Part shown: in pieces, positions 44,385 through 62,358 of the stretch
How the letters are laid out: every line of letters starts with the position of its first letter
Numbering within the stretch: the first letter of the stretch is position 1
Source of the DNA: Mammaliicoccus vitulinus
GTDB taxonomy: Bacteria; Bacillota; Bacilli; Staphylococcales; Staphylococcaceae
Direction of reading: 5' to 3'
Assembly (NCBI RefSeq): GCF_029024305.1
Contig: NZ_CP118974.1
Span: forward strand, 1,643,069-1,707,068
Length of the DNA stretch: 64,000 nucleotides
Made by a program: the position numbers and the translations under genes
Notes under the pieces: generated by a model
What the model was told of the DNA's origin: nothing
The model's input: only the letters and a program-made list of their open reading frames with translations
Databases searched by the model: none

Positions 44385-44846
44385 TTATATCCTTAATTCT
44401 GTATATGATTCAACATTTGCTTTTGTCGTTTCTGCCTCTGCAGTTACCACCAAATCTAGCAACTCGTCAGTTGCTACTATTCCAGAATCATTAAATGCAA
44501 CTCTTTCAGTATTTTTCATTTCGTTTAATGCTTTTTCTTTTCTTAGCTCTGCTAATTCTTGCTACAACTTTTCATTCTCACATTCTGTTTTTTGGTCTTT
44601 ATTCATTTTGGCGTAACGTTTGGCTTCTTCGACTGCATCTTGCACTCTTTTATCTGCATTTTTCTTTTCTTTTGCTAGTCGACGTTCGATAATTTCATCA
44701 ACTTTTTTCTGTTGTTCTGGTGTAAAAGTTACTTCTTCTTGCTTGTCTTGTTCATCTTTAGAATCATTATTATCATTGGTATTTTCGTTTGTTCCTTCTT
44801 GATTGGAAAAGAATTGTAAATTAAGCTTAAGTTTATTTTTTTCCAT
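44385..44846 (-). pseudogene. Broken phage scaffolding protein (DUF4355)
   Basis: Starts MEKNKLKLNLQFFSNQEG after GGAGG, the standard beginning of siphovirus DUF4355 scaffold proteins, with the acidic and coiled-coil region following. A TAG stops the frame at 44562-44564 (after ECENEKL), but the same frame continues for 58 codons (QELAELRKEKALNEMKNTER, VAFNDSGIVATDELLDLVV, then TKANVESYTELRI) before a TAA at 44385. In-frame continuation with scaffold-like sequence shows a nonsense mutation. It is a head-gene relic unconnected to the tail module further right. Confidence 0.8.
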
Positions 44847-44922
44847 AAAATATACCTCCATTTATAGTCCGTCGACTCTATATTCCATACAAGCTTTTAA
44901 AGTCATCAGCACGTTTTGGACA

Positions 44923-44954
44923 TAAAAAATAGCCATTACATTGTTGTAATAGCT
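44923..44954 (-). terminator. Terminator after the LSM-like gene
   Basis: Stem AGCCATTACA (44931-44940) with TGTAATAGCT (44945-44954), one mismatch, followed on the minus strand by ATTTTTTATG. The following 18 bases are repeated after the terminator at 45292-45330. Confidence 0.65.
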
Positions 44955-45005
44955 TAAAAAAGTGTATAAAAATAGCGCCATAACCATTAATTTTCGGTTA
45001 GGTGC

Positions 45006-45200
45006 TTAATCTAAAGTTTCAATCGACTTTATTTTGCTTTCATCGAAGTCATATAATTGAAATCCAGTAGCCAAATGTATAGAAGGTTCCCCACTGTTAT
45101 TAACTATTTCATCATCGTAATCTGTAACTTCACCAATAAATTGTTTTCCATTCGTCAATTCTATTCGTACCTTTTTTCCCACATAAGTCCATAGTTTCAT
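45006..45200 (-). CDS. LSM-domain-like small protein, phage-associated
   Basis: A 64 aa protein of Sm-like pattern: VGKKVRIELTNGKQFIGEV matches the first Sm motif and the hydrophobic strand pattern continues to IHLATGFQLYDFDESKIKSI. Similar small genes occur in staphylococcal prophages and genomic islands (recalled). Very good ribosome site AAAAGGAGG. It might bind RNA, which is inference from fold only. Confidence 0.72.
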   Translation of the reverse strand: MKLWTYVGKKVRIELTNGKQFIGEVTDYDDEIVNNSGEPSIHLATGFQLYDFDESKIKSIETLD

Positions 45201-45291
45201 AACTTATCCTCCTTTTCGTACGGTACAATATGAGTTCCAGTTTTTGAGTAGTGCACCTTTTAACGCCTTAAGTACGTTTTGGACATAAAAA

Positions 45292-45330
45292 CACCCCGAA
45301 TGTTAGGTTTTTACTCTAACTTTCGGGGTG
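45292..45330 (-). terminator. Terminator after the coiled-coil membrane gene
   Basis: 15-bp stem with one mismatch (45292-45306 with 45316-45330), followed on the minus strand by TTTTTATG. It ends the 45359-46088 unit. Confidence 0.8.
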
Positions 45331-45358
45331 CAGTACACAATTAAGGTGGGTTTTGTTA

Positions 45359-45730
45359 TTAATAAAAACCAAAAACTTTCCCTGCTACCCCCAAAATAGC
45401 GATAAGTGTTCCAATAAACCATTTCATTTGTGTGTTCTTCATTTCAGAAATTTGAAGTTTTATTTTATCTTCTATTTTCATAGGTAGGTCATCTATTTTA
45501 TGGTTTAGATTATCGAATTTATCGTCGATTCTTTTCTCGAACTGTTCAAATTCTTTTCTACTTATATATTCATTCATATTTAACACCTCATTTGAACTTA
45601 TACTACCTGCACTATATTGATGAAAATCTAATCCACTAGCCTTTGATAATTCTTTTAAATCTTTTGTTATTCTTTCGTCCCTATTTTCTAATTTAAATTT
45701 ATCAAGTCTACTAATTTTTTCGTTCGCCAT
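45359..45730 (-). CDS. Coiled-coil protein with C-terminal membrane helix
   Basis: A 123 aa protein. The charged N-terminal half contains SRLDKFKLENRDERITKDL, a coiled coil covers about residues 55-98 and one hydrophobic C-terminal helix follows (WFIGTLIAILGVAGKVFGF). This pattern resembles phage XhlA-type and other tail-anchored accessory proteins, but I see no diagnostic signature. Its start lies 20 bases inside the upstream gene, so the two are probably translated together. Confidence 0.65.
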   Translation of the reverse strand: MANEKISRLDKFKLENRDERITKDLKELSKASGLDFHQYSAGSISSNEVLNMNEYISRKEFEQFEKRIDDKFDNLNHKIDDLPMKIEDKIKLQISEMKNTQMKWFIGTLIAILGVAGKVFGFY

Positions 45731-46088
45731 TTTCTAGATTACCTTTCATAACATTAAAGTATGCATTAGATGTATTATCTTCAATAGTTAACTTAATAGA
45801 ATGAATACCCTCTTTTTCGAATCTCAAATTATTAAAGCGAGCATTAGTTTCAAAGACATTTAAGTGTTTTTTATCTCCATTCTCTTCATCCATCTTTTTC
45901 TTATCAATTTTTACAGTAGTATTAAACATAATTTTATCATCAGGATCTATTAACTCAAATTGTAAAGTATAAGTTTTTATTTCATCTATACCTATTATCC
46001 CAAATGATACATCAAAAGAATAGTTATTAGGTAATACTTCTAAATTTAATTGTGCAAAAGATAGAACGTGAATCGAACAACCATCTAT
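45711..46088 (-). pseudogene. N-terminally truncated gene overlapping the coiled-coil gene
   Basis: The open frame runs from just after a TGA at 46089 without a good start codon and reads VLSFAQLNLEVLPNNYSFDV, then a beta-rich sequence to the stop at 45711. An internal ATG at 45929 gives 72 aa but has no clear ribosome site and would skip half the domain. The beta-strand pattern (FGIIGIDEIKTYTLQFELID) suggests a sandwich fold of the DUF6941 type, with low confidence. Probably a gene that lost its 5' end at the integration scar. Confidence 0.5.
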
Positions 46089-46106
46089 TCATTTAGGTGG
46101 GGTAAA

Positions 46107-46241
46107 TTAAAAACTTTTACCTTCACGATAATAATCTAAATCCGTCAAACAAATCCGTTTTAATATTTCATCTTCATATGAAATTTCAGGGTATTCTTTT
46201 TCAGTTTGAATAACTAATTGCATAAATTCATGTTCAGTAGA
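46107..46241 (-). pseudogene. C-terminal fragment of an unidentified protein
   Basis: Minus-strand frame reading STEHEFMQLVIQTEKEYPEI then SYEDEILKRICLTDLDYYREGKSF and a stop. The composition looks coding, but there is no start and the fragment ends where the plus-strand integrase fragment begins. I do not recognise the parent. Confidence 0.35.
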
Positions 46242-46439
46242 AAAATTGGCTTTGAAGATGATTCTATTACACCATATGCATTAAGACATACACATACATC
46301 TTATTTATTAAGTAAGTCCATTCCAATAGAATACATTAGTAAAAGATTAGGACATGGGAATATATCTATAACTTTAGAAATTCACTCTCATCTGTTAGAA
46401 GTATATAAAAAAGAACAAGGTCAACGTGTCAGAGAATGA
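46236..46439 (+). pseudogene. Tyrosine recombinase (integrase) C-terminal remnant
   Basis: Encodes the last part of a phage-type integrase catalytic domain: ITPYALRHTHTSYLLSKSIP (R-x-x-H motif), then ISKRLGHGNISITLEIHSHLLE. At the nucleophile position, where the family has Tyr before SHLL, this copy has His (EIHSHLLE). All sequence upstream of about residue 6 is missing. Truncation plus loss of the nucleophile make it inactive. It shows that an element once integrated here. Confidence 0.75.
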
Positions 46440-47434: not shown

Positions 47435-47561
47435 ATCCCGTTGTACCATCGTTACGAATAACGAGATACAACGGGATATTGGTAATTTAGCGTCCTGGGA
47501 GGGATTCCCTAAACGCTATAACACCAATATTTATGTACATTTGGTGTAGTCCTGGTGTAGT
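47435..47561. other. Candidate attachment region (long hairpin, tRNA-end-like core, paired repeats)
   Basis: Within 127 bases: an 11-bp plus 6-bp nested hairpin (ATCCCGTTGTA at 47435-47445 with its complement at 47467-47477); a segment whose reverse complement GAATCCCTCCCAGGACGC looks like the T-arm and acceptor 3' end of a tRNA; an inverted pair TAGCGT/ACGCTA around it; ACACCAA/TTGGTGT inverted repeats; and a direct repeat TGGTGTAGT (47542-47550, 47553-47561). Core plus arm-like repeats at the end of a prophage suggest attL or attR. No complete tRNA is present. Confidence 0.4.
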
Positions 47562-47601
47562 AAATGATTTTCATCATAAAAAAGACCTCTCGCTTAGCCC
47601 C

Positions 47602-47631
47602 TTTACAAAACAGAACACTCGTTCGTATAAT
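47602..47631 (+). promoter_or_regulatory. LexA-box promoter of the YolD operon
   Basis: TTTACA (47602-47607), 18-base spacer, TATAAT (47626-47631). The spacer contains AGAAC-ACTC-GTTCG (47612-47625), one base from the Gram-positive LexA consensus CGAAC-N4-GTTCG, directly next to the -10. LexA would block polymerase until DNA damage. Confidence 0.82.
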
Positions 47632-47662
47632 GAAACTACTAATTATACGTGAGGTGTAAAAA

Positions 47663-48073
47663 ATGAAAATCATTAACCCTACTATGCCCGAACCATATAA
47701 GTATGAAACTGACTATCGTAAGATTCCTAAGGAGTATTTGAATACTAATATTCCGCAAGGTCGTAAGATGATTAAGTGGGCGCCATTTGCAACGATGCCA
47801 CAACAGTATGAAACGATTAGGCAGTATAAAGAAAATCAAAACAAAGTTGATAAGCCTGTATTTGATGAATTAGCGCTACGTGATTTAAATGATGTGTTAG
47901 CACAAAAGTTATTTTATGATCCACCAGCGACGATTAAATATTGGGATAACGGATATTATAAGACAATTGAATGTGAGATTAACAAGTTTGATAGTGAACG
48001 TAATAAGTTAGAAGTATTAGAGAATGGTGAGAAAGTAATATTGAGTATGGATTGTATTGTGGAGATAGAGTAA
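47663..48073 (+). CDS. YolD-like family protein
   Basis: A 136 aa protein. The conserved YolD motif region is RGRKMIKWAPFATMPQQYET in type (here GRKMIKWAPFATMPQQYE near residue 38), and the beta-rich C-terminal half has GYYKTIECEINKFDSERNKLEV. YolD proteins usually precede or accompany Y-family polymerase UmuC/UvrX and are SOS-induced. The LexA box fits. ATG after GTGAGGTG. No polymerase gene follows in this window. Confidence 0.88.
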   Translation: MKIINPTMPEPYKYETDYRKIPKEYLNTNIPQGRKMIKWAPFATMPQQYETIRQYKENQNKVDKPVFDELALRDLNDVLAQKLFYDPPATIKYWDNGYYKTIECEINKFDSERNKLEVLENGEKVILSMDCIVEIE

Positions 48074-48098
48074 TATTAATATAATGGAGGGGATATAA

Positions 48099-48371
48099 AT
48101 GAATCAAGAAATACACAATTATGATAAGGAAGTTGTAAAAGTAATTACTAATTCCATTTTCAAGGAAGAAATAACGAGTACACAAGTATTAAAAGACAGG
48201 GTCTATCAAAACGGACATGATGACAAAGATGTTTCTGATATTCTAAATGTTCTTCTGTATTCGGGTATAATTGATAGGCCTCGTTATGAGCTGAATGGAA
48301 AATTTAGAGAACACGACTTTATGGTTAATATGCATAAATTGAATGAAGTCGAACGTGAAGGACTAATATAA
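48099..48371 (+). CDS. Second gene of the SOS operon, unknown
   Basis: A 90 aa hydrophilic protein, predicted helical (VVKVITNSIFKEEITSTQVL; DDKDVSDILNVLLYSGIID). It could be a winged-helix-like fold, but I see no signature. ATG after GGAGGGG, 25 bases after the YolD gene with a terminator behind it, so it shares the SOS promoter. Confidence 0.7.
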   Translation: MNQEIHNYDKEVVKVITNSIFKEEITSTQVLKDRVYQNGHDDKDVSDILNVLLYSGIIDRPRYELNGKFREHDFMVNMHKLNEVEREGLI

Positions 48372-48376
48372 AAAAA

Positions 48377-48403
48377 AGCCCACCAATTAAGGTGGGTTTC
48401 TTT
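48377..48403 (+). terminator. Terminator after the YolD operon
   Basis: Stem AGCCCACC (48377-48384) with GGTGGGTT (48391-48398), then TCTTT. A-rich on the other flank, so it may also end the convergent membrane-protein gene. Confidence 0.75.
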
Positions 48404-48415
48404 ATGTTATTTATC

Positions 48416-49054
48416 TTATTGATTATCGACTGAATCATCAGATGATATGGGATTTTGTTTTTTATCATTCGTATCTATATATTCAATAAACTTAAACTTA
48501 ATACAAGTAGGTATTAATAGAACTGTAAAAATCAAACTAAAATAGACTATATATACACTTACCAGGGTTAAAGGATATAGAACAAAATTAGAAAAAGTTA
48601 TTGGTAAATTAACAATAAAATACCCTATAATCAATAAAAATATAGAAATCAAATTAAGTATACCTGATGCATAAAATCTATAAATTAAGATAGCAAAAAT
48701 TTCTACTTTGCTAAAAATTAATTTCTTGTTACTATTAGAAAACTCTTCTATACCTACTTTTGATATACGTTCAATATCCTCGGTTTTAAAAATCGATAAA
48801 ACTAAAGCTAGTGCTGATAGAGAAAAAGCAATCATCGTGATAAGTCCACCAATAAAAGTTAAAATCAACTCTGAAATCACAGATTTATATAATATAGAAT
48901 CTAATTGAAAAAAATAGTACATAATAAATATAGTGATCGCAGACAATAACAATGATATTAATGCTTCGATTGACCAAATCAACTCTTTTATTCTTTTTAA
49001 TAAGTATATATTCGGAGAGGTTTCAATAAAAATTTTATTCATTATATTTTTCAA
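48416..49054 (-). CDS. Multi-pass membrane protein, second gene of a RexAB-like cassette
   Basis: A 212 aa protein with four or five hydrophobic helices: two near residues 27-50 and 65-90, then two or three from about residue 118 to 185. The connecting loop (FKTEDIERISKVGIEEFSNS) is charged and the C-terminus is polar. Start is TTG at 49054 after AGAGGTG. It is 19 bases downstream of the 280 aa soluble gene, in one transcript. The layout (soluble sensor-like protein followed by membrane protein) recalls lambda RexA-RexB and other abortive systems. No family recognised. Confidence 0.7.
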   Translation of the reverse strand: MKNIMNKIFIETSPNIYLLKRIKELIWSIEALISLLLSAITIFIMYYFFQLDSILYKSVISELILTFIGGLITMIAFSLSALALVLSIFKTEDIERISKVGIEEFSNSNKKLIFSKVEIFAILIYRFYASGILNLISIFLLIIGYFIVNLPITFSNFVLYPLTLVSVYIVYFSLIFTVLLIPTCIKFKFIEYIDTNDKKQNPISSDDSVDNQ

Positions 49055-49073
49055 TTTAACACCTCTTTTTTCA

Positions 49074-49916
49074 TTATAAAATATTTTTATCTATTACTTC
49101 TGATGCGATTTCATTTGGAGAGTTTTTTATACTTTCGGGTATTTTATGTTTTTCTATTAATTCTTTGTTTTTTAAAGTATTTATTTCAAGTGGCATGCCA
49201 TCAATACCTTTTCCTTCTGCAACCATTTCACCATATCCTCTTTTCACAAAATTATATAGTCCCTTTACTAATTCTGATGATTTAACTAATGGTTTTCTGA
49301 TACTGGCTTTTAAAGAAAACTCCATTTCTGTCGCTTCAGTTTCTTCTAATTCTTCTGATATACTTTCAAGTCCTTTCCATAAATCCTTATCTGAATTTGG
49401 AGGAACTATCACAACTGATATCTTTTTCATAGTATTTATTTCTGCAAATTTTTTATCTAATTCTTTATTATCTAACTTTATTTGCAAATTAACTCGACCT
49501 ATTTGAGGACTACAAAGATAAATAAAATCAGCAAAAACTTTCAAGAAATGTTGTCTTGAGAATGCTTGTTTTGGAACAAATGCTATCATTTCCCTATGTA
49601 CAAAAAATGAAAAAGCTATATAGTCTGCTGGACTTTCTACTATTTGTTCTTTTAATTCATCATTTTTCTCATCATAAGTATTTTGAGTTTTACTTTTTTC
49701 AATTCTTAAAAACTTTCCATTTATTACAAAATCATTTGGATTTTTTTCAATGTCTACTATCTTATATCTTACGCCAGACATTTCATCTTCCATGACTCGA
49801 TTGGAATCAATGTCTATATACAGTTGATCTAAAAAGGTTTTTATTGTAGTTTCCCCTTTATAGACACTGTGGATTTTTTCATTTACATTTAATTTCGCTA
49901 AATATATATTTGCCAT
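49074..49916 (-). CDS. Soluble protein, first gene of a RexAB-like cassette
   Basis: A 280 aa protein without membrane segments. The N-terminal 150 residues are alpha/beta with GVRYKIVDIEKNPNDFVING and SPADYIAFSFFVHREMIAF, FSRQHFLKVFADFIYLCSPQ. A middle segment (KKISVVIVPPNSDKDLWKGL) follows, and the C-terminal 80 residues are helical and charged. The pattern is loosely like DUF4747-type phage and defence proteins, but this is a guess. It has its own promoter with a palindrome around the -10. ATG start; AAGAGG upstream. Length equals that of lambda RexA (about 279 aa), which is suggestive only. Confidence 0.7.
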   Translation of the reverse strand: MANIYLAKLNVNEKIHSVYKGETTIKTFLDQLYIDIDSNRVMEDEMSGVRYKIVDIEKNPNDFVINGKFLRIEKSKTQNTYDEKNDELKEQIVESPADYIAFSFFVHREMIAFVPKQAFSRQHFLKVFADFIYLCSPQIGRVNLQIKLDNKELDKKFAEINTMKKISVVIVPPNSDKDLWKGLESISEELEETEATEMEFSLKASIRKPLVKSSELVKGLYNFVKRGYGEMVAEGKGIDGMPLEINTLKNKELIEKHKIPESIKNSPNEIASEVIDKNIL

Positions 49917-49933
49917 TTCCCCAAACCTCTTTC

Positions 49934-49969
49934 ATTGTGTATTTAACAATATTATACATTTTACACAAT
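49934..49969 (-). promoter_or_regulatory. Promoter of the two-gene cassette with flanking palindrome
   Basis: On the minus strand a TATAAT -10 (49951-49956) lies between the two perfect 8-bp halves of an inverted repeat: ATTGTGTA (49934-49941) and TACACAAT (49962-49969). A weak TTCAAC -35 is upstream. The arrangement suggests a repressor site, possibly autoregulatory. Confidence 0.65.
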
Positions 49970-50008
49970 AAAGTTGAAAGAGTTAATTTATAAAAAGTGC
50001 AACTAACA

Positions 50009-50040
50009 TCAGGGAAGGACATTAGTTGCTAATACACACT
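50009..50040 (-). terminator. Terminator upstream of the cassette promoter
   Basis: Stem GCAACTAA (50009-50016) with TTAGTTGC (50030-50037) followed on the minus strand by ACTTTTTAT. It would shield the cassette from read-through out of the late lysis operon. Confidence 0.65.
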
Positions 50041-50543
50041 TATATTATACCACATATTAAGAGTTGATACTATTAGTAGATACTAATTATAGGCAAAAAT
50101 ATAACCCCATCACTATTGTGACAGGGTAAGGTAACAGGTGTTTAATATGATACTCAAGCATAACAAAAGTGCTTATATATAGTAATAATACACTTTTAGT
50201 ATTTAATCAAATAATAACACCCCGCTTTTTAGCGAGGTGCCAAAATCACTTAAGGGTGTTTAATACATGAAAATGCATCAAGATCTATAAAACAGGGGTA
50301 TCTTGACATTAACTTATTACCCCTTACTTTTTTATCATAAACATAAAAATACCCCACTTAATAAAAAGTAGGGTCGCCGTCATATTGTGTTTAATATGTC
50401 TTTCTGAATAATAACATATAATTTGTGAAAGGCATAAAAAATAACCATACCTAGTATACGCTAAGTAGGTTTTTTTCTTTAGTCATTATAAATATATTTT
50501 TACATTAAAATTATTTTTAAAGATTAGAACTTGCACGAGATTG
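50041..50543. repeat. Gene-poor spacer with a series of hairpins and a GTGTTTAATATG repeat
   Basis: Holds four hairpins (ACCCCATCACTATTGTGACAG at 50104; CACCCCGC..GCGAGGTG at 50219-50240; ACCCCACT..AGTAGGGT at 50351-50374; ACCATACCTAG..CTAAGTAGGT at 50444-50470). Three copies of GTGTTTAATAYATG or a close form follow three of them (50147, 50265, 50385). No convincing gene; short frames of 19 aa or less were not called. The hairpins may be stacked terminators left by loss and gain of small genes. Confidence 0.55.
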
Positions 50544-51347
50544 TTACGGATTATTATTAAATGCTCCATCTACACCTAACTCTTTCATTTCTTTAACTTC
50601 ATCTTGATTATTTAATGTAAAGACATGAACTTTCAACCCATTTTCATGACATTTTTTTACTAAATCTTTATTTACAACCTCTTTATTAAATCCCAAACCA
50701 TATGCGTATTTGGATAAATTTTTTAATTCTTTATCGTTTAAGCTTTTTACTACTTTATCGTCTACTAACTGGATTAACGGAATATTTTCATTTAATTTAT
50801 GTATATTTTTCAAACTTGTTTCAGAAAATGATTGAATGATTAGTTTTCCATTATCTAAATCATTTTCTTTTAAGATAGTGTTATCTTCTAAATCTTTTAT
50901 TAGTTTTTCATCCATACCCGGATACATATCGGGTTTTTTAGTTTCAATATAGAAGTTTGTTTTCTTTTTATATTTGCTTAATACGTCATTTAATTCTGGT
51001 ACTTTCTCACCCTTATATTTCTTATCAAACCATGATCCAGAATCGAGTTTTTTTATATCTTTCAATGTTTTATCTTTAACCATTCCTGTACCGTTTGTAG
51101 TTCTATCCACTTTGCTATCATGCATCGCTACTAGTTTATTATCTTTAGTCATTTGTAAATCAAGTTCTGTATAATCAGCTTTTTGTTTTATCGCTTTGTC
51201 GTATGCAGCATATGTATGCTCTGGAGTACTGCCACTTGCACCTCTATGTGCTATATTTATATAGTCTTTTTCTAATACACTTTCTTTACTATTACAACCA
51301 ACTAATGCTATACAACTTATTAAGCTTACTACTATGATTCTATTCAA
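50544..51347 (-). CDS. Lipoprotein glycerophosphodiester phosphodiesterase
   Basis: GDPD-family enzyme that hydrolyses glycerophosphodiesters to glycerol-3-phosphate. Signal peptide with lipobox LVGC (Cys about residue 18 from the TTG start), so it is membrane-anchored outside. The TIM-barrel motifs are intact: NIAHRGASGSTPEHT with HR and the glutamate, TELDLQMTKDNKLVAMHD with E-x-D-x...HD, FYIETKKP, then LKVHVFTLN near the end. Start chosen: TTG at 51347, nine bases after GAGG; an ATG at 51368 lacks a good site. It sits between endolysin and cassette, a moron position. It may act on glycerol-phosphate teichoic acid. Confidence 0.88.
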   Translation of the reverse strand: MNRIIVVSLISCIALVGCNSKESVLEKDYINIAHRGASGSTPEHTYAAYDKAIKQKADYTELDLQMTKDNKLVAMHDSKVDRTTNGTGMVKDKTLKDIKKLDSGSWFDKKYKGEKVPELNDVLSKYKKKTNFYIETKKPDMYPGMDEKLIKDLEDNTILKENDLDNGKLIIQSFSETSLKNIHKLNENIPLIQLVDDKVVKSLNDKELKNLSKYAYGLGFNKEVVNKDLVKKCHENGLKVHVFTLNNQDEVKEMKELGVDGAFNNNP

Positions 51348-51411
51348 CTTTAAAAACCTCGCTCGCATTTTAGTATTCTTCGCTATATTATCATAAATAA
51401 TACAAAAAATA

Positions 51412-51546: not shown

Positions 51547-52962
51547 TTATGAGAAAGTCCCCCATGCTGCACCGACGATGTGATTCGGTGGCGTACCTTT
51601 AGCTGTTCTTACTGGCAAGTAGTATCTTACACCTTTGAATGTGTAACCAATCCATACATGACCATCTTGAATACAAACTTCGTCATAAGGTGTGTACCCT
51701 TTCGGTTGAAACCAATAACCTTCTGGTGCAGTTAAGAATGGTGAACCTACACGCGCTAGTATTGGACTTCCGCCACAAGTGAATGTTGCAGATTCTTTCA
51801 TCCACCATGTACCGTATTGATTCTTCTGCCATTTGCCAGTTGATACATTTGGTTTACTTGGTTTAGGTTTACTTAGTTTAACAGTTGTACCTATCAGTAT
51901 ATTGCCATTATAATATGCTTTAATTTGGCTAATGAAATAATCTTTAGTTTTATTCACAACAGATTGTGGCGCTCTATCGCTAGACGCATAGCCAGCATGT
52001 AATTTCATTGATCTATGTGGGCATTCTGTTGGCGCAAACTCATTATGAAGTCTAACTGTATTTCTATCGACTGGCAGTCCCCATTTCTTCAACATTCTCG
52101 CTGCCTCTTGAAATGCTGATTGTTCACTTGCTAAGAAGTCTTTATCACTTGCTGACATTGATTGACATACTTCAATGCCATAATAATTAGTATTGCCATC
52201 ATTATTAGCTGTATGCCATGCTGTACGCCCTTCTGCGAGTGCTTGCCATACTGTATTACCACTAATGTAACTATGCGCTATGCCGTTCTCTAATCGACTT
52301 AATGGTGCGTTTACTAAACTGTCGAGATATTGCATAGCTGATAAACTTCCAGCATCATTGTGGATAACTACACCTTTAGGTTTATAACCACGTTTAGGCA
52401 ATTTATAACCCGTTACTTCATCACGATTGTATTTTAAAGTTTTGGTTTTAGTTTTACTTGGTTTTTTAGCAGTTGCAGTTTTATGAATTTCTGTTTTGAA
52501 GTTTGGTCGGATAAACCACATCTTAGTATCATAAGTATGATTACGTTTAGTAACTGTTTCAGTACCTTTGCCACCTTGTTCAATTCCGTCAGTCCAGCCA
52601 TAGCCTAACCAATTCTGTTCCAATACTGTAATTGTGTTCAATGTAGCATTAATTACCCATGAGACATGACCATAACCTTGACCATAGTTAGCGTTAAATA
52701 TAACCATATCTCCTGGTTGTGCTAAAAAATCTGGTGTATTTTCATATACAGTAGCTTCTTTTTTGAAATACTGTTTATTCTCTTTATTGAATGGTATATC
52801 GATAGCACCGTCGCCTTTTAAACCATGACCAAATAATTGTTGCCAACCTATATTAGCATAGTCAAAACATTGGAAACCATACCAACCGTCAAAGTCATAT
52901 TGTTTCCCAATTGTACCGTTTAAAAATTTCACAAATTCATTCTTCGTTAATTTCGCAGTCAT
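51547..52962 (-). CDS. Phage endolysin: CHAP, amidase-2 and SH3b domains
   Basis: A 471 aa peptidoglycan hydrolase. Residues 1-140 form a CHAP endopeptidase (catalytic Cys in YGFQCFDYANIGWQQ, His in GHVSWVINA). Residues 190-340 form an N-acetylmuramoyl-L-alanine amidase of the amidase-2 type (GVVIHNDAG, AWHTANNDGN, HNEFAPTECPH zinc and active-site residues). The C-terminal 95 residues are an SH3b wall-binding domain (YGTWWMKESATFTC to HIVGAAWGTF). This is the classical staphylococcal layout. ATG at 52962 after AGGAGTG; the frame opening at 52971 lies in that site. Confidence 0.95.
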   Translation of the reverse strand: MTAKLTKNEFVKFLNGTIGKQYDFDGWYGFQCFDYANIGWQQLFGHGLKGDGAIDIPFNKENKQYFKKEATVYENTPDFLAQPGDMVIFNANYGQGYGHVSWVINATLNTITVLEQNWLGYGWTDGIEQGGKGTETVTKRNHTYDTKMWFIRPNFKTEIHKTATAKKPSKTKTKTLKYNRDEVTGYKLPKRGYKPKGVVIHNDAGSLSAMQYLDSLVNAPLSRLENGIAHSYISGNTVWQALAEGRTAWHTANNDGNTNYYGIEVCQSMSASDKDFLASEQSAFQEAARMLKKWGLPVDRNTVRLHNEFAPTECPHRSMKLHAGYASSDRAPQSVVNKTKDYFISQIKAYYNGNILIGTTVKLSKPKPSKPNVSTGKWQKNQYGTWWMKESATFTCGGSPILARVGSPFLTAPEGYWFQPKGYTPYDEVCIQDGHVWIGYTFKGVRYYLPVRTAKGTPPNHIVGAAWGTFS

Positions 52963-53012
52963 TAATAACACTCCTTTTATTGTATTAAAAAAGCCGACTA
53001 TTTAGCCGACTC

Positions 53013-61003: not shown

Positions 61004-61040
61004 TTAATATGCAGGTCTGAATTGCGCTAACCCCATGATG
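61004..61040 (-). pseudogene. Last residues of the tape-measure protein
   Basis: Minus-strand frame IMGLAQFRPAY followed by TAA, just upstream of the Dit ribosome site. In tail modules the gene before Dit is the tape-measure protein, and a short hydrophobic-aromatic end is plausible. All of the rest is replaced by the IS element. Family assignment is by position. Confidence 0.5.
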
Positions 61041-61108
61041 TGGGAGTAAAATAAAAACACTTTCGTTGAATTCATATTAAAATGAATTTATACGGAGGTG
61101 TTTTTTCT

Positions 61109-61423
61109 ATGAAAAGAGTGGCATATTCAGTTGAAACAAAATATAAAGTAGTAGAAATGAAACTTAAAGGATATAGTACAAGAGAAATAATGGATGCTTT
61201 AAATATTAAAAATGAATCTCAAGTTAAAGTGTGGTGGAAATGGTATAGAAATGGGGAAACACATAGATTCAATCAACAAGTAGGTAAACAATATTCCTAC
61301 GGAAAAGGAAATGAAGAATTGAGTACTGTTGAGACGCTAAAAATTGAATTAAAGCGCAAAGAAGTAGAAAATGAAATTTTAAAAAAGTACAAGGAATTGG
61401 AAAGGAAGTGGTCCCAGAGGTAG
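61109..61423 (+). CDS. IS150-group transposase OrfA
   Basis: A 104 aa helix-turn-helix protein (VETKYKVVEMKLKGYSTREI, then VKVWWKWYRNGE) with a C-terminal leucine-rich coiled coil. ATG at 61109 after ACGGAGG. The slippery heptamer A-AAA-AAG (61381-61387) lies in the correct phase for a -1 shift into orfB. Confidence 0.92.
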   Translation: MKRVAYSVETKYKVVEMKLKGYSTREIMDALNIKNESQVKVWWKWYRNGETHRFNQQVGKQYSYGKGNEELSTVETLKIELKRKEVENEILKKYKELERKWSQR

Positions 61424-62250
61424 TTGTTGAATTAGTAAATGAATTGAAATCTAAATATACAGTGAAAGTCATTTTAGAAACTTTAGATATTCCAAAATCA
61501 AATTATTACAGATGGAAAAACAAAGATTTCAGTATATCTGAGGATGAACGAGAAATTATAGAACTATGTAAGAAACATCGTTTTACATATGGTTATAGAA
61601 AAATAACTGCCTTGTTAAATAGAAAAAATAATAAACCAATTAATCACAAAAAAGTACAAAGGATTATGCAAAAACATAATTTAAATTGTAAAGTACGAAT
61701 GAAAAAATCGAAAAGACCAGGGAATGCATATTATAAAACACATAATCTATTAAATAGAAACTTCAAAGCAGAGAAACCTTTAGAAGTACTTTTAACAGAT
61801 ATCACTTATTTACCCTTCGGGAATACAATGTTGTATCTTTCATCTATCATGGATGCTTACAATGGTGAAATTGTGGCATATAAAATCGGTAATAAACAAA
61901 ATCAAGAATTAGTAAATGAGACATTAAAACAACTTCAATTGGAACCAGGTACTATATTACATAGTGATCAAGGAAGTGTGTATACTTCTTATGAATACTA
62001 TGCCCTATGTACAGAAAAAGGCATTACCAGAAGCATGTCCCGTAAGGGAACGCCAGCTGATAATGCCCCAATAGAATGTTTTCATGCCTCTCTAAAGTGT
62101 GAAACATTCTACTTAAACAGTGAGCTTAGAAGCTCTAATACCATTGTAATAGATATTGTCGAAAATTACATTGAAAACTATAATAAAGTTAGAATTCAAC
62201 AAAAACTAGGCTACTTATCCCCTATAGAATATAGGAAATTAGCAGCCTAG
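61408..62250 (+). CDS. IS150-group transposase OrfB (DDE integrase domain)
   Basis: A 280 aa rve-family catalytic domain. HTH_21-like part has YGYRKITALLN; the DDE residues are in LLTDITYLPFG, LHSDQGSVYTS and PIECFHASLKCE with the 35-residue spacing. The C-terminal YNKVRIQQKLGYLSPIEY is standard. It is in the -1 frame relative to orfA; GTG at 61408 is an internal opening, and full OrfAB is made by frameshifting. All catalytic residues are present, so it may be active. Confidence 0.93.
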   Translation: MVPEVVVELVNELKSKYTVKVILETLDIPKSNYYRWKNKDFSISEDEREIIELCKKHRFTYGYRKITALLNRKNNKPINHKKVQRIMQKHNLNCKVRMKKSKRPGNAYYKTHNLLNRNFKAEKPLEVLLTDITYLPFGNTMLYLSSIMDAYNGEIVAYKIGNKQNQELVNETLKQLQLEPGTILHSDQGSVYTSYEYYALCTEKGITRSMSRKGTPADNAPIECFHASLKCETFYLNSELRSSNTIVIDIVENYIENYNKVRIQQKLGYLSPIEYRKLAA

Positions 62251-62276
62251 AAAATAGTGTTTTTATTGAGCTCCCT

Positions 62277-62358
62277 TAGTAAGGGTGCAGTGCCAAATTT
62301 TCTTATCAGTCCTTTTGTGTTTAAAAATGTTTATCTTTTAGTTAAGATTCTAACTATT
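62277..62358 (-). terminator. Weak terminator region after the surface-protein gene
   Basis: A TAGTTA/TAACTA stem around GAATCT with A-rich sequence is all that is seen downstream of the stop. No strong rho-independent terminator, possibly because the IS removed part of the region. Confidence 0.3.

Follow-up and report, generated by a model that had tools for sequence, protein, structure and literature searches.

A pair of adjacent genes in a prophage of Mammaliicoccus vitulinus likely constitutes a two-component phage-exclusion (abortive-infection) module of the RexAB type, carried as prophage cargo. The genes, here called A and B, lie in a 64,000-nucleotide stretch of contig NZ_CP118974.1 (positions 1,643,069 to 1,707,068; hereafter the window), and they are RexAB-like in architecture and in the fold predicted for protein A, from which we infer their function. 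Four lines of evidence suggest this reading: the two genes form a conserved and co-varying pair, the predicted fold of protein A is RexA-like, its partner combines about four helices with a central loop that is charged, and the prophage slot in which they sit holds Kiwa in two related phages. Comparable pairs are found in further Gram-positive bacteria, so that they probably represent a hitherto unrecognised branch within a rare class of anti-phage systems.

49074..49916, minus strand: gene A, open reading frame (ORF) of 280 amino acids (aa); soluble, predicted RexA-like fold, DUF4747-related
48416..49054, minus strand: gene B, ORF of 212 aa with a TTG start; about four transmembrane (TM) helices, putative effector

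Fold, family and conservation of the pair

A first-pass annotation of the window had described a soluble 280 aa protein and then a 212 aa membrane protein, encoded on the minus strand 19 bases apart. The ORF list gives the same coordinates, and hydropathy agrees: A has 0 hydrophobic segments, while B has a multi-segment profile with four main peaks (near 37, 80, 140, and 170) and charged N-terminal and central loops. A simple window predictor counts five or six segments in B, varying with settings; across 25 B proteins it finds four segments in 14/25, two or three in 4/25, and five or six in 7/25. The TTG start of gene B is preceded by AGAGGTG, which resembles a ribosome site.

The predicted structure of protein A matches the RexA fold (reference RexA structure 8twq; re-alignment against the PDB covered Foldseek's top 1000). 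The same annotation had seen no recognisable sequence homology to RexA or RexB, and this stands: neither the RexA family PF15969 nor the RexB family PF15968 has a match in the window, and the RexA comparison is at background (profile score 14.3 vs. a top score of 20.4 among 157 comparison ORFs). The RexB profile score of 19.4 is the highest of 9 membrane ORFs, RexB itself among them, which are too few to judge. Sequence homology of the pair to RexA, RexB, CarolAnn gp44/gp43, and Kiwa is unsupported, with scores at background, RexB being that top scorer among 9.

On sequence grounds, protein A is a member of a divergent family that is related to DUF4747 and lies outside the RexA and RexB sequence families. 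The window protein itself has no match above the Pfam cut-off, none in PADLOC or NCBIfam, and none to DUF4747 (PF15931; gathering score 27 bits) at E values up to 1. The connection runs through its relatives. The A protein of locus L043 scores 37.3 bits against DUF4747 (cut-off 27), the A9 family profile aligns with the DUF4747 protein L063 A (33.6 bits) over 239 columns (probability 99.2, E 9.4e-20), and 5/24 A9 members match DUF4747 at E 0.1 or better. B family profiles also align with each other across this link (E 1.9e-8, 82 columns). Conservation across 24 A proteins is complete at K8, E109, and N174 and nearly complete at N10, G67, F102, P173, Y228, and G235. PHROG 10040, which is without known function, is matched by window A (E 7.9e-5) and by L025 A (E 1.1e-8). 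Within the six genomes with DUF4747 matches, those at L064–L066 are weak, look unrelated, and were set aside.

Relatives of A are scattered and often sit on mobile elements. A matches were found in 9/398 genomes of the class and 6/398 of the phylum (the source genome counted in both) and in 2/157 genomes of the order, the second weak. Pairs occur in IMG/VR contigs and on Priestia and Exiguobacterium plasmids, with a type I restriction subunit encoded only a few genes away from the Priestia pair. Another is found in an Enterococcus faecalis plasmid record that includes phage genes, where ArpU regulator and terS genes flank it. Neighboring genes in relatives were named by eye from translations without family search, with only phage and plasmid records annotated; they include HNH or terminase genes (L016, L017, and L025), endolysin (L022 and L084), ImmA-like peptidases and recombinases (L075 and L077), and a DndD-like gene (L032). 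At L024 (3027-13386), in what looks like a defence island on a contig assigned to viruses, the pair has an ATPase-like gene on one side and Vsr/Dcm-like genes on the other, and at L031 it sits amid chromosomal housekeeping-like genes. In phage records, tblastn of A-type proteins returned MT837915 (an unverified fecal clone) and two Serratia phage places (E 5 and 8), and tblastn of B returned no match; a single-protein A query found no relative in the first viral-contig scan. We took the weak A match in G123 and the weak B matches in G041, G155, and G156 as chance.

A neighborhood survey of homologues, suggested in the first-pass annotation, shows that adjacency of A and B is kept. We scanned 47 loci for the pair, 4 of which lack an A match (L004, L006, L029, and L030); merging duplicate, identical, or near-identical loci by hand left 30 distinct loci with A. 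Intact A is followed directly by B in 26/30 (gap -50 to +51), and 19 of the 26 overlap. Outside these, A is broken in L013 (5669-8989) with an intact B 1.9 kb on; it is cut short in L026, where no B lies within the available piece; in L036 a 4-TM ORF lies 205 nt on, unmatched by the B profile; and in L039 A is split over two ORFs with B next. Among loci unused in building the B profile, B stands directly behind A in 14/17 (L039 included). With B as the query against the same 398 genomes as A, 7 of 9 matches fall at A loci and 2 are marginal. G245 and G329 have an A match and no B match; G245 nonetheless has B adjoining A, and in G329 (the genome of L036) a 4-TM ORF goes unmatched by the B profile. 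Distances among A proteins correlate with those among B proteins, both over 23 pairs (r = 0.83) and over the inner 15 (r = 0.72), with 0/5000 permutations in either case; the correlation demonstrates common descent of the pair and not contact.

Prophage setting and regulatory signals

The surroundings of the pair in the window are as follows.

47461..47489, unstranded: left attachment repeat, 29 bp, with an identical second copy immediately beyond the integrase-like gene (L068 18175-18203)
47663..48073, plus strand: YolD-like gene at the prophage end (PF08863, E 5.6e-20), likewise in the phage phi879 annotation
48376..48399, unstranded: bidirectional terminator-like hairpin behind gene B and plus-strand genes (terminator scan)
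49934..49969, unstranded: inverted repeat with 8-bp arms enclosing the -10 box, the operator of the first-pass annotation; not above chance
49951..49956, minus strand: -10 box TATAAT, perfect, preceded by a weak -35; may be the pair's own promoter, from sequence
49999..50029, minus strand: terminator-like hairpin 5′ of the pair, 12 pairs, T-rich tail
50544..51368, minus strand: lipoprotein-like glycerophosphodiester phosphodiesterase (PF03009, E 3.9e-57), second cargo gene of the slot
51547..52971, minus strand: endolysin (CHAP, amidase, SH3; domain search), inner edge of the cargo slot

The prophage between the two 29-bp repeats spans ~54.7 kb and contains tape-measure-, capsid-, portal-, terminase-, replication-, and repressor-like genes (identified by eye). 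As had been proposed, the pair lies outside the lysis genes and near the prophage end, with the endolysin on one side and the attachment repeat on the other; repressor-like and integrase-like genes are at the opposite end (L068, by eye). The phages nearest to this one have M. (Staphylococcus) sciuri as their host. From the endolysin to the prophage end, phi879 carries KwaB then KwaA (L069 5099-6669; PADLOC E 1.3e-115 and 3.1e-57), as does phi6228 (L072 4044-5540; E 1.3e-59 and 1.1e-34), while by annotation phi575 has staphylokinase and phospholipase A2 in the same slot and phi31 has other genes. This is thus a cargo slot, which in 2/4 related phages examined carries a known defence system: Kiwa fills it in some phages, the RexAB-like pair in the present prophage. 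As would suit acquired cargo, A and B have lower GC contents (0.275 and 0.236) than the late operon has (0.347).

The regulatory signals ascribed to the pair fared unequally, so that the earlier observation is partly confirmed. The upstream terminator holds, in that the minus-strand hairpin at 50029-49999 would isolate the pair from the late operon; terminator-like sites in 47500-51000 number 7 vs. 1.1 expected. An own promoter is possible: the ATG is preceded, at a distance of 34 nt, by a perfect TATAAT, with a poor -35 (TTCAAC, spacing 16). The promoter scanner itself reports a neighboring 9-of-12 site, and the stretch is not enriched in promoter-like sites over shuffles (21 vs. 25.4). The operator-like palindrome (8-bp arms, 20-nt spacer) does not survive, as 114/1000 dinucleotide shuffles are equal or better.

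Two further observations concern the prophage and its flank. Copies of an IS3-like element (window 61022-62300 and L067 8401-9679; 1279 bp, 99.8% identical) lie on either side of an LPXTG-type surface-protein gene that is very long and rich in repeats, and since this block lies between a tape-measure-like gene and a tail gene, the prophage tail operon looks interrupted. Outside the left attachment repeat, at window 44562-46439, capsid-scaffold-like and C-terminal integrase-like fragments (by eye) resemble an older phage remnant.

Proposed mechanism and alternatives

Protein A would be produced in the lysogen from its own promoter, dimerise via its central domain, and, like RexA, bind DNA non-specifically. 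A second, infecting phage, through DNA-protein intermediates or a phage protein, would alter the state of A, and altered A would activate membrane protein B. Activated B may then open a pore or channel, membrane potential and ATP would drop, and phage growth would stop at the cost of the cell or of cell growth.

The arrangement might also work in reverse, with the soluble protein as the antiviral factor and the membrane protein restraining it until infection. Phage Butters gp30/gp31 has an equal soluble plus 4-TM plan with a proposed mode of that kind, according to passages of the literature, and gene order and co-variation here are compatible with it; yet passages of PMC12894663 distinguish Butters from other RexAB-like systems, and we think such a variant unlikely. 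Some relatives adjoin ImmA-like genes (L075 and L077, by eye), as might be expected of a lysogeny/lysis regulator in which A binds prophage DNA non-specifically to bias the lytic switch and B tunes it. The pair nevertheless stands at one end of the prophage, far from the repressor-like gene, and plasmids and the vicinity of restriction genes are among the places where relatives are found, so that this role seems distinctly improbable. Two overlapping or adjacent genes often found on mobile elements would also suit a toxin-antitoxin-like maintenance pair in which A holds a membrane toxin, B, in check. The RexA-like predicted fold and the DUF4747 link favor Rex-type systems instead, and passages of PMC12894663 / PMC11077077 describe RexB-dependent growth effects of A overexpression in RexABpp. 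Moreover, A is broken and B intact both at L013 and at L084 (6461-7874), a hint against toxicity of partnerless B, and we give this explanation very little credence. A phage lysis or structural accessory without a defence role, for which the adjoining lysis genes might speak, is highly implausible given the separate terminator-like hairpin, the replacement of the pair by Kiwa in two related phages, and the relatives on plasmids.

A broader and more tentative proposal, which may or may not hold, is that RexAB is no peculiarity of lambda but one member of a widespread class combining a RexA/RdgC-fold DNA clamp with fast-evolving four-helix membrane effectors. The Bacillota branch of that class, which the defence catalogue consulted does not pick up, would protect low-GC Gram-positive lysogens, plasmids, and defence islands through recognition of foreign phage DNA. 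A sequence-divergent Bacillota branch would broaden the RexAB class, its members would be testable in Bacillus subtilis, and comparison of distant homologues could address what RexA senses.

Comparison with known systems

Passages of several studies (PMC7542560, PMC6426606, PMC6426596, PMC13373217, PMC12894663, PMC11077077) describe two-gene soluble plus 4-TM prophage defences; they name DUF4747 as a weak motif in common, report that RexA homologues bind DNA non-specifically, and set out five RexAB-like systems. The hosts of the phages or prophages named there are Escherichia, Mycobacterium, Gordonia, and Pseudomonas; uncharacterised homologues in other actinobacteriophages (PMC12894663 / PMC11077077) and 17 DUF4747/CarolAnn operons (PMC13373217) are also mentioned in these texts. 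Searches of the open-access literature yielded no published Bacillota member, the hosts of the 17 PMC13373217 operons being left unchecked. A membrane-anchored prophage protein acting against kayviruses, the subject of PMC10127798, is distinct from the present pair.

Kiwa (KwaA/KwaB) likewise pairs a membrane with a soluble protein and uses the same slot in phi879 and phi6228. However, no homology was detected between its proteins and A or B: the pair has no PADLOC match to Kiwa, and hhalign comparisons with phi879 KwaB, phi879 KwaA, and phi6228 KwaB are all at background. RexABpp (Pseudomonas putida PP_5643/PP_5644) belongs to another phylum; RexA was found there by HHpred, whereas here a profile against single RexA is at background.

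Lambda RexAB shares with the pair a soluble gene followed directly by a membrane gene inside a prophage, and this architecture, with the RexA-like predicted fold, supports the RexAB-like reading first offered for the pair. It differs in that rexAB-type linkage and co-transcription with a CI-type repressor are absent here, the pair having its own promoter-like site far from the repressor-like gene, and in that B has 212 aa vs. 144 aa for RexB; any relation of B to RexB is putative.

CarolAnn gp44/gp43, Sbash gp30/gp31, and Butters gp30/gp31 are proteins of actinobacteriophages with demonstrated defence, whereas a defence role of the pair here is putative; CarolAnn gp44 and Sbash gp30 have 370-372 aa, and A, in Bacillota, is shorter. 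As single-sequence targets, CarolAnn gp44 scores 18.8, within the comparison-ORF range, and gp43 15.0. All three nevertheless consist of adjacent soluble and 4-TM genes in temperate phages, they share the DUF4747 connection, and the CarolAnn genes overlap. For Sbash, an own promoter is reported, and linkage to a CI-type repressor is absent there as well.
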